A stretch of DNA of 37,620 bases, from assembly GCA_020718065.1 (NCBI GenBank), contig DYDE01000026.1, forward strand, positions 1 through 37,620, in the 5' to 3' direction. Below the pieces are notes generated by a model that saw only the letters and a program-made list of their open reading frames with translations, was not told the DNA's origin and ran no database searches. The DNA comes from Marinifilum sp. GTDB lineage: Bacteria > Bacteroidota > Bacteroidia > Bacteroidales > CG2-30-32-10. The stretch's first letter is position 1, and the number at the start of each line of letters is the position of its first letter. Positions 13,244 through 16,692 of the stretch are shown here, piece after piece. The position numbers and the translations under genes are program-made.

Positions 13244-14623
13244 TTAGCCTTTCACCAATTCTTTAAACAATCTACCCCGTTCTTCAAAATTTTTAAACAT
13301 CCCATAACTAGCTGCAGCAGGAGATAACAAACAAATTGTATTTGTTCGGGTTTTGTTTTTAGCAACGTCCACAGCCTCTTCAAAAGTCTTTACAGTAAAG
13401 TATTGCTGCGAATTAATATTTTCATATTTATTTAATTCAAATAATATTCTTAAACCTGCTTTTTCTATAAAAATAAAATGTTCAATTTTTGTATTAATTA
13501 AAAATGCAGCCAAATCGCAATAATTAATACCCCTGTCAAAACCTCCCAGGATTATCGTATTGACATTTTTTAAAGTTTTAATAGCTTCTATCGTCGCTTC
13601 AGGAATTGTTGCAATAGAATCGTTATAATAAATTATATCATTATATTTTCCAACATATTCAATTCGGTGTTCCAATCCTTTGAATTCAGTAATTCCTTTT
13701 TTAATATATTCATCAGGTATCACTTTTGCTTTACAAGCAATAGTCGCAGCTATGATGTTCAACAAATTATGATCTCCTTTCAAAAAAAGATCTTTGCTTA
13801 TTTCAAACTCAAAAACAAGCTGATTATTCGGTTTTAATATTATAGAATTATTGCTCACAAATACATCGTTTTCTGAATTTTCTGTAAGCGAATAAGGTAG
13901 TACTTTACTTTTTATTTTGTTTTCATTTAACAATGATTTTATAAGCTCATCTTCTTTATGAAAAATAAAAAAATCTCTTTCCTTCTGATACTTGGCAATA
14001 TTAAACTTTGAAAGTTGATAATCTTTATAATTATTGTAATGATCAAGGTGCTCCTGAAATAAATTAAGTAATATGGAAATATGGGGTGATACAGATACGT
14101 ATTCTAACTGATGAGAAGATAATTCACAAACAATAATAGTGTTATCGTCAATATTATCAATCATATCAAAAGGAGGAACACCAATATTTCCAACTAAAAT
14201 GGAATTATTATTAAAAGAATGAACAATATTAAATATCAGACTTGATGTTGTGCTTTTTCCTTTGGTTCCAGTAATACCTATTATTTGATTTCTGTATTGA
14301 CTCAAAAACATATTGGTTTGCGAAGTAATATTTTCCTTATTTACTTTCGTTTGCAAATTGTTTAATGAAATTCCTGGTGTTTTTATTATTAGATCAAATT
14401 CATCAATAAAATTTAAATATTCCCTTCCCAAAATAAAATGCACGAATTTGTCTTTTTTCAATGCATCCGATTTATTCAAAATGTTTTCATCTAAATCTGC
14501 AATAGTAATAATAAGTTCTGGAAAATACTTTCTAAATGTTTTATAAGTTGATTCCCCCTCGCGACCATAACCAAGAATCAATATGTTTTTATTTTGAATT
14601 AACTGATATAGATATTCCTTCAT
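13244..14623 (-). CDS. murD: UDP-N-acetylmuramoyl-L-alanine glutamate ligase (MurD type, probably MurD2)
   Basis: A 459-residue Mur ligase that adds glutamate to UDP-MurNAc-L-Ala with ATP in the cytoplasm. Seen: N-terminal Rossmann motif ILILGYGREG, ATP loop GTKGKSTT (about 119-126), VGNIGVPPFD, CELSSHQLEYV, FQEHLDHY with a following lysine in KFNIAKYQ as the carbamylation candidate, GDHNLLNIIAA, GLEHRIEYV, YYNDSIATIP and the C-terminal LLSPAAASYGMFKNFEERG. It starts immediately after the stop of a MurL-type gene, with no base between. In Xanthomonas a MurD2-MurL pair first adds L-Glu and then epimerises it, so this ligase may use L-Glu. The ligase family is certain; L-Glu specificity is inference from the neighbour. 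Confidence 0.93.
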   Translation of the reverse strand: MKEYLYQLIQNKNILILGYGREGESTYKTFRKYFPELIITIADLDENILNKSDALKKDKFVHFILGREYLNFIDEFDLIIKTPGISLNNLQTKVNKENITSQTNMFLSQYRNQIIGITGTKGKSTTSSLIFNIVHSFNNNSILVGNIGVPPFDMIDNIDDNTIIVCELSSHQLEYVSVSPHISILLNLFQEHLDHYNNYKDYQLSKFNIAKYQKERDFFIFHKEDELIKSLLNENKIKSKVLPYSLTENSENDVFVSNNSIILKPNNQLVFEFEISKDLFLKGDHNLLNIIAATIACKAKVIPDEYIKKGITEFKGLEHRIEYVGKYNDIIYYNDSIATIPEATIEAIKTLKNVNTIILGGFDRGINYCDLAAFLINTKIEHFIFIEKAGLRILFELNKYENINSQQYFTVKTFEEAVDVAKNKTRTNTICLLSPAAASYGMFKNFEERGRLFKELVKG

Positions 14624-16003
14624 TTACATATATTTCTTTAAAGTATTTTCAAAATCAACATTTAAAAAATGTTCCTCATTAAATTGTTTCAAAAGTTTAA
14701 CTTCATCAATTCCTTTAAAACGCTCATAATTCTTTAGGGTTTTATAATAATTCAATAAATATGGTAAATCTTCATTTGATGAATAATGCTTTTTTAAAGT
14801 TAAACAAAGCGCAATATTCACTTCATCAACAGTTCCAACGCATTCAAAAGGCTTAACATTCTCATTTCCTATCAGTTGATTAAAGTAATGCATCATTTCA
14901 GAATCATTTAGAATATTTTCACCATAAATTCTAATCAACTCATTTGATGATATGAATGGAGAAAGAATAATAAAAGTAAATAAACATTTTGGGCATTTAC
15001 AGCACCATTCATCAACTTTGCTTCCAACATTACAACTTCTGAAAGACTTGAATTGTTTTTTGCAATCAGAAAATAACTTCGCTATCTGCAATTCACTTAA
15101 AGGTCTTAAAAAACTAAAATAATTAAAATCCTCCGAAACAAACTCTTTCACATACAATCTAAAATCTCTTTCAAATTCATATGACTTAGAATACTGATGA
15201 TTAATATTGCTGCCATCTACCGTTGCTTCATTAGCACTTGATTCGTTAGATAATGCAATGTTTTTTCTCTTCACTATTGCTGCTATTAATATTGAAACAA
15301 AAGCCAATAATGCCGAAAAAGGCGTATGTCCATTTAAAAACCCTTTATTGTTTAAATCAATAAGATTTGGGTCAATCGTTCTATATATTTTTATAATGCT
15401 ATCATCATTAAACCCAGCATTTTTTGCAGTATCAATACTTGCTTTTCTCGGATTTAAAATTAAACATAAATTATCTTTGTATTCTCTGTTCAATAATTCC
15501 ATTGTTACTATTGAATCTTTTCCACCACCAACTGGAATTATATTAGAATCAATAAGTTCATATTTTTCTTTCTCAGACTTAATTGTTGCATTACATTCAA
15601 TTTCCATAAAAGAATCTTCATTTATATCAATAGAATTGATGTAAAAAAACTCTCCCAGTCCATTGTAATATATTTTTTTCCAAAAAGATATTTGTTTTTC
15701 CTCAAGCAAAAATGGTTTAATAATAACCTTTTTTGAACAAGTCGCTTTCCAGTAACTTATTAATTCAACCATTCCAATATGAAAAACCAGATTATTCAAT
15801 TTCTTTTTTGACAATATTTCATATTTTAACGAATTTGTTATTGGAATTCTAATAGTTGGTTTAAAATAAAACCTCTCAGAAATATTAAAGAAATAAGTTA
15901 TTAACAATTCATTTTCTTTAAGTTGTACTTTAAAATCATCAAAAGAAAAAAGAGGATAAGAATTTCTCAGGTCAATAAATTTGTTATGATTTGAAGTTCT
16001 CAC
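14624..16003 (-). CDS. murL: MurL-type epimerase of UDP-MurNAc-L-Ala-L-Glu
   Basis: 459 residues. A P-loop-like PVGGGKDS (157-164), LNPRKASIDTA, NGHTPFSALLAF (224-235), ALSNESSANE (250-259) and a cysteine cluster EWCCKCPKC (332-340) match what I recall of MurL. This epimerase converts the terminal L-Glu of UDP-MurNAc-L-Ala-L-Glu to D-Glu in an ATP-dependent way and replaces the MurI plus classical MurD route. Its stop codon directly abuts the ATG of the MurD-type ligase, so the two are translationally linked. The start is GTG 16003; there is no ATG before residue 78. A TACTTTTG promoter lies 53 bases upstream. Other PP-loop ATPases could share the GGGKDS motif, but the pairing with murD makes MurL by far the best reading. 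Confidence 0.8.
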   Translation of the reverse strand: MRTSNHNKFIDLRNSYPLFSFDDFKVQLKENELLITYFFNISERFYFKPTIRIPITNSLKYEILSKKKLNNLVFHIGMVELISYWKATCSKKVIIKPFLLEEKQISFWKKIYYNGLGEFFYINSIDINEDSFMEIECNATIKSEKEKYELIDSNIIPVGGGKDSIVTMELLNREYKDNLCLILNPRKASIDTAKNAGFNDDSIIKIYRTIDPNLIDLNNKGFLNGHTPFSALLAFVSILIAAIVKRKNIALSNESSANEATVDGSNINHQYSKSYEFERDFRLYVKEFVSEDFNYFSFLRPLSELQIAKLFSDCKKQFKSFRSCNVGSKVDEWCCKCPKCLFTFIILSPFISSNELIRIYGENILNDSEMMHYFNQLIGNENVKPFECVGTVDEVNIALCLTLKKHYSSNEDLPYLLNYYKTLKNYERFKGIDEVKLLKQFNEEHFLNVDFENTLKKYM

Positions 16004-16095: not shown

Positions 16096-16692
16096 ATGAA
16101 AAATATTACTTTTATAAAGAATTTTCAAATGAAACCTAATCAAATCAAACCGGCGCAAGGGAAATTATTAATTTCCGAACCTTTTTTAACTGATTTTTAT
16201 TTTAAGAAATCAGTTGTTTTACTTGCAGAACATAATGAAGAAGGCTCTTTTGGGTTTATAATTAATAAACCTTTAGAAATAAAAGCATACGACTTACTAA
16301 AAGATTTTGCAGATTTTGAACCCAAAATCTATTTGGGAGGTCCTGTAAAAACAGACACCATTTATGCTATTCATTCACTTGGCGATACAATTCCAGAAAG
16401 TAAGCAAATAACAAATGGATTATATTGGGGAGGCAATGTCGAAATTATTTTTGAATTAATAGCTAGTAAAAAAATAAGTACCAATGATATATGTTTTTAT
16501 ATTGGTTATTCTGGCTGGAGTGCAAATCAATTAAACAATGAGCTCAAAGAAAAATCCTGGATAGTTATGAATCCAACAAATGAGCATATACACAGCGCAA
16601 AACCCGAAAACTTATGGAGTGAAATATTAAAAAGTATGGGTAACGAATATGCCATTTGGGCAAATCCTCCACTTAATCCCTCTCTAAACTAA
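16096..16692 (+). CDS. YqgE/AlgH family protein
   Basis: A 198-residue DUF179 protein. Typical stretches are QGKLLISEPFLTDFYFKKSVVLLAEHNEEGSFGFIINKPL near the N-terminus, IYLGGPVKTDTIYAIHSL in the middle and YIGYSGWSANQLNNELKEKSW further on. The family is widespread; AlgH affects alginate regulation in Pseudomonas, but no reaction is known. The alternative start is ATG 16129, which removes 11 residues; the longer form fits the N-terminal extension seen in Bacteroidales relatives. It is a single gene divergent from murL and convergent with the HIT gene, 14 bases apart. Confidence 0.9.
   Translation: MKNITFIKNFQMKPNQIKPAQGKLLISEPFLTDFYFKKSVVLLAEHNEEGSFGFIINKPLEIKAYDLLKDFADFEPKIYLGGPVKTDTIYAIHSLGDTIPESKQITNGLYWGGNVEIIFELIASKKISTNDICFYIGYSGWSANQLNNELKEKSWIVMNPTNEHIHSAKPENLWSEILKSMGNEYAIWANPPLNPSLN

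Follow-up and report, generated by a model that had tools for sequence, protein, structure and literature searches.

A linked MurL and MurD2 pair as the apparent route to cell-wall D-glutamate in part of the Bacteroidales

The supply of D-glutamate is a near-universal step of cell wall synthesis and a drug target. An alternative pathway employing the proteins MurD2 and MurL is known from Xanthomonas oryzae (XOO_1320 and XOO_1319), and also from Micromonospora and Salinispora. Two reviews place this pathway in Gammaproteobacteria, Alphaproteobacteria and actinobacteria, with Bacteroidota not named, and the Xanthomonas alternative has been described as confined to relatively few genera. In X. 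oryzae MurD2, specificity for L-glutamate is set by E197 and R358, the E197D/R358K exchange turning the enzyme to D-glutamate, and E. coli MurD carrying K319T accepts L-glutamate (PMC8788868). Xanthomonas MurL uses ATP and forms AMP, and its authors, who state that the protein has no known domain, proposed adenylation of the alpha-carboxylate (PMC8788868, PMC5808125).

Here we examine a pair of this kind in a Marinifilum sp. assembly of the order Bacteroidales (GCA_020718065.1, contig DYDE01000026.1); by the window we mean the whole stretch of DNA analysed, positions 1 to 37,620 of that contig. The original prediction was that a MurD-type ligase starts at the very next base after the stop codon of a MurL-like protein, and the coordinates, together with both 459-residue reading frames on the minus strand, were confirmed (Table 1). 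At the sequence level, murL and murD2 thus constitute one reading frame parted by a single stop codon, while in some relatives both are fused in one open reading frame. The three motifs from which MurL had been recognised, PVGGGKDS, ALSNESSANE and EWCCKCPKC, are all present in the murL product. A relative of the divergent yqgE/algH-like neighbour occurs at 76 of 96 MurL loci, and the gene is, as far as known, outside the pathway.

Table 1. Features of the murL-murD2 locus in window coordinates and, in the last three rows, examples of the short dcw murD gene taken from contigs L229-L239
Feature	Position (strand)	Basis or remark
murL, 459 aa	16003 to 14624 (-)	GTG start, TAA stop at 14626-14624; open reading frame and NF041275 match
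murD2, 459 aa, assigned as UDP-MurNAc-L-Ala L-glutamate ligase	13244-14623 (-)	TIGR01087, MurD2 residues, tree
TAA-ATG junction	14621-14626 (-)	murD2 ATG at 14623 abuts murL stop, same frame
MurL PVGGGKDS, residues 157-164, predicted PP-loop type ATP-binding motif	15512-15535 (-)	aligned with QueC SGGQDS
MurL C324, C334, C337, C340 (Cx9CxxCxxC), like the QueC zinc site	14984-15034 (-)	conserved without exception in 99 MurL sequences; matched to QueC cysteines by profile alignment
MurL C388 in KPFECVG, candidate catalytic residue	14840-14842 (-)	99 of 99 sequences
MurD2 E191	14051-14053 (-)	corresponds to E. coli D182 and X. oryzae E197
MurD2 R364	13532-13534 (-)	corresponds to E. coli K348 and X. 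oryzae R358
MurD2 I337	13613-13615 (-)	position of E. coli K319
yqgE/algH-like gene, divergent from murL	16096-16692 (+)	PF02622, E 6.8e-45
Short dcw murD	L230: 4411-4977 (-)	
Short dcw murD	L237: 2033-2572 (+)	
Short dcw murD	L239: 7570-8112 (-)	

In a profile search, residues 19-405 of the 459-residue protein matched the NCBIfam model NF041275 (E 2.1e-76, 257 bits), which bears out its identification as MurL. The score is below the curated cut-off of 700 bits, a value set for Xanthomonadales, after which the model is also named, and automatic annotation would for this reason leave the window murL unnamed. All non-Xanthomonas MurL proteins tested score about 250-265 bits against the same model; judged by these sequences, the cut-off is the mark of a subgroup, not of the MurL family. 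From end to end, the window protein is approximately 26% identical to MurL of X. sacchari, and it is 44-55% identical to the MurL proteins on ten Bacteroidales contigs.

What can be said of the ligase? It passes the murD model TIGR01087 (319 bits, cut-off 212) and is 31-34% identical to Bacteroidales MurD proteins from the dcw (division and cell wall) cluster, against 25% to X. sacchari MurD2, as might be expected were it an ordinary D-glutamate-adding MurD beside an unrelated MurL-like protein. However, X. sacchari MurD2 passes this model too. We aligned 85 MurL-linked MurD sequences with E. coli MurD and with full-length dcw MurDs, 25 of them from genomes with MurL and 20 from genomes with MurI (residue numbers for E. 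coli MurD follow the literature, with the first methionine omitted). The MurL-linked sequences have glutamate at the D182 position (83 of the 84 that have a residue in this column), arginine at the K348 position (82 of 82) and isoleucine at the K319 position (83 of 83), whereas all 45 dcw sequences have D, K and K at D182, K348 and K319. The window protein carries glutamate and arginine (E191 and R364) at the D182 and K348 positions, and E206, I339 and R367 of X. sacchari MurD2 fall in the columns of window E191, I337 and R364. A maximum-likelihood tree places the window protein and all Bacteroidales MurD2 sequences together with Xanthomonas MurD2, separated with 100/99 support from E. coli MurD and the dcw MurDs; the X. 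sacchari and E. coli sequences form long branches, yet fall on opposite sides. Specificity residues and tree both place the ligase with MurD2 and, together with its linkage and fusion with MurL, make an ordinary MurD very improbable. One point needs correction: the murD beside murL is a separate MurD2 paralogue, and not a dcw murD that has changed its place.

Among the 96 MurL loci read, murD2 is directly downstream of murL on the same strand in 81, and four encode MurL and MurD2 in a single open reading frame of 885-949 residues; ten have no nearby MurD, and in one a MurD fragment lies at the end of the contig, approximately 3 kb off. The fusion is also found in five of ten separately found named contigs (L007, L012, L013, L014 and L016), of which L007 is identical with the contig of genome G402. 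X. sacchari has the same gene order, with the genes overlapping. On one contig (L015, 6001-12330) another gene lies between the two, and murD2 continues in frame into an M20-peptidase-like domain (908-residue open reading frame). MurL was not found in viral contigs. The sole match in the phage collection, a murL and murD2 in a 'Bacteriophage sp.' record from human faeces (L191, MT836755.1, 3878-6539), has bacterial-looking neighbours (elongation-factor-G-like and lipoprotein); the record appears to be a bacterial contig filed in error, perhaps from Bacillota.

Plasmid pPaSha1 of Pseudonocardia alni carries a murL relative, annotated as a hypothetical protein (L192, 3764-5164), with no adjoining murD. 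Some MurL homologues thus stand without a neighbouring murD, and this could indicate that the pair acts on some other peptide or polymer and not on the peptidoglycan stem. That MurI is replaced, and that several MurL lineages have lost the full-length canonical MurD, points instead to the essential stem peptide, and we regard action on another substrate as extremely improbable.

Modelling offers a view of how MurL itself may work. An AlphaFold2 model, generated with an alignment of 11 sequences, reached a pLDDT of 89 and a pTM of 0.89, and a Foldseek search of the PDB returned QatC (9y01) as the best match (425 alignment columns, probability 1.00, E 7e-4), with QueC (3bl5) also at probability 1.00. 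The TM score is 0.66 by target (QueC) but only 0.31-0.43 by query, so a core is common to MurL and QueC/QatC and the rest is not. A profile alignment (local probability 32%, E 5e-4) sets GGGKDS of MurL on SGGQDS of QueC and pairs C324, C334, C337 and C340 with the zinc cysteines of QueC; MurL has GGGKDS in place of SGGxDS, and C(x)9CxxCxxC in place of C(x)8CxxCxxC. These four cysteines and C388 are invariant in 99 MurL sequences, Xanthomonas and Pseudonocardia included. PF06508 had no match in MurL at E 0.01; MurL resembles QueC and is not filed as QueC. We predict a QueC-like PP-loop fold for MurL, with a putative zinc site and, in C388, a residue that may be catalytic. QueC, a zinc enzyme, acts on a carboxylate substrate in two steps that depend on ATP (PMC13329287), and the modelled fold fits both the adenylation proposal and the ATP-to-AMP chemistry of Xanthomonas MurL. 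Among the open-access papers searched, none treats MurL together with QueC.

If MurL and MurD2 make D-glutamate, then MurI may be dispensable, as originally predicted. A phylum-wide sample (297 genomes at least 90% complete) has MurL in the window's genome alone; as it contains only two other genomes of the same order, an order-level sample of 295 genomes, all from the order of the window's genome, was used. MurL is present in 98 of these and MurI in 179, while 18 have neither and none has both (Fisher p 4e-60, phylogeny ignored). Of 120 families sampled, 45 have MurL, 73 have MurI and no family has both. The presence of MurL or MurI follows families, so that independent switches are fewer than these counts. 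The window's assembly (90% complete) has no MurI over the cut-off. The strict exclusion and this search both support dispensability of MurI. D-amino-acid transaminase was considered as a D-glutamate source and dropped, there being no match in the same 90% complete assembly. The search for PF01177 in the window's genome yielded a single protein, a RacX-like member of the aspartate/glutamate racemase family on contig C197 (L006: 1249-1965), which scores 37 bits against MurI.

The fate of the canonical MurD is less uniform. The window's assembly has no mraY over the cut-off; the dcw cluster is therefore missing from it and its single murD proves nothing, and we dropped the lack of a second murD as evidence. 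The search for a second murD that had been proposed to check the prediction found none in the window's genome. A canonical MurD of full length (E at most 1e-110) persists in 53 of the 98 MurL genomes, among them two of the three sampled members of the window's family (G308 and G521). All 25 such proteins examined have D-Glu-type residues. A canonical MurD kept in a MurL genome calls for a D-glutamate source or for another role. One possibility is that the pair is an accessory route only, the main precursor being made by canonical dcw MurD with D-glutamate of an unrecognised source (uptake, RacX-like racemase or bifunctional DapF). The intact residues of the retained MurDs and the RacX-like protein in the window's genome are in keeping with this, as are two genomes of one genus (G370 and G473, family f124, 99% complete) that have canonical MurD and neither MurI nor MurL over threshold; G565, the third genome of that genus, has MurL. 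Three observations, however, make a merely accessory role improbable: MurL and MurI never occur together; PF01177 racemases, which we discarded as a general D-glutamate source, are absent from most MurL genomes tested and present only in a minority; and a full-length canonical MurD is missing altogether from several nearly complete MurL genomes, so that MurD2 must do the ligation there.

We read the dcw cluster in 11 MurL genomes that have no complete canonical MurD (G494, G389, G457, G350, G469, G495, G396, G580, G417, G374 and G567). Between mraY and ftsW, all 11 have a gene of some 176-182 codons, free of interruptions, which corresponds to MurD from approximately residue 270 to the end, that is, the C-terminal domain alone; the N-terminal domain and the central ATP-binding domain are absent. 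It is recognised by Pfam Mur_ligase_C, although the most diverged copies fall below the cut-off. Decaying pseudogenes were considered as an explanation, which we reject for now: the genes are free of stops, start and length match between several families, and Nei-Gojobori dN/dS in two close pairs is 0.06 (G396/G580) and 0.15 (G374/G567). We take the short MurD, which shows signs of purifying selection, for a retained, probably non-catalytic protein whose role is presumably structural or regulatory. In one further dcw cluster (G346; L241, 5647-8118) murG and murC are seemingly fused in an 823-residue open reading frame.

Taken together, the MurL profile match, the MurD2 residues, the tree, linkage and fusion, the exclusion of MurI, and the fold and motifs of MurL are best explained by a pair that makes cell-wall D-glutamate through ligation of L-glutamate followed by inversion, with MurI dispensable, and we put the probability of this at roughly 0.9. 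Weighed against it are the low identity to Xanthomonas MurL and the score below the curated cut-off, the canonical MurD kept in over half of the MurL genomes, and the incompleteness of the window's assembly with its missing dcw cluster. Both catalytic activities would be present in the window's organism. MurD2 would attach L-glutamate to UDP-MurNAc-L-Ala, and MurL, with ATP, would activate the free alpha-carboxylate of the attached glutamate, a step which the predicted QueC-like PP-loop fold would suit; inversion of the alpha carbon would follow, and the D-glutamate form would be released for MurE. The order of events in the original prediction, L-glutamate added and then epimerised, is thus supported, on sequence evidence, by MurL identity, specificity residues, the Xanthomonas MurD2 branch, the fusions and MurI exclusion.

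In one Bacteroidota order, 45 of the 120 families sampled apparently obtain D-glutamate through MurL-MurD2. Judged against the open-access papers searched, this spread and the fusion form are apparently new, as are the strict exclusion of MurI, the predicted likeness of MurL to the QueC fold, and a dcw MurD that is either kept or cut short. We lean towards regarding as an undescribed layout of early peptidoglycan synthesis the combination of a QueC-fold peptide epimerase, MurL, with an old MurD that, after the switch to MurL-MurD2, is kept either intact without a recognised D-glutamate source or as a C-terminal domain of approximately 180 residues under purifying selection. For many uncultured Bacteroidales, cell wall synthesis without free D-glutamate, and insensitivity to MurI inhibitors, are predicted. 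The predicted fold gives MurL, reported as having no known conserved domains, a testable mechanism, and the shortened dcw MurD prompts one to ask what role a Mur ligase has once ligation is lost.

How does the Bacteroidales pair compare with known systems? In the canonical MurI and MurD route, free D-glutamate is made first, and MurI is never found with MurL in the 295 genomes. With the Xanthomonas MurD2-MurL pathway the pair shares both gene families, the L-glutamate specificity residues, the replacement of MurI and, as in X. sacchari, gene order. It differs in that some Bacteroidales have single MurL-MurD2 fusion proteins, in the identity of MurL, which is only about 26%, and in that a canonical MurD, or a stub of its C-terminal part, remains in the dcw cluster of many. 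With the QueC family (QueC, QatC and Cap9), MurL shares the predicted core fold and, in variant form, may share the ATP loop of the SGGxDS type and the cysteine pattern of the zinc site, but is set apart by an extra N-terminal region, by GGGKDS and the lack of a PF06508 match, and by a UDP-linked peptide as substrate, with no ammonia involved.
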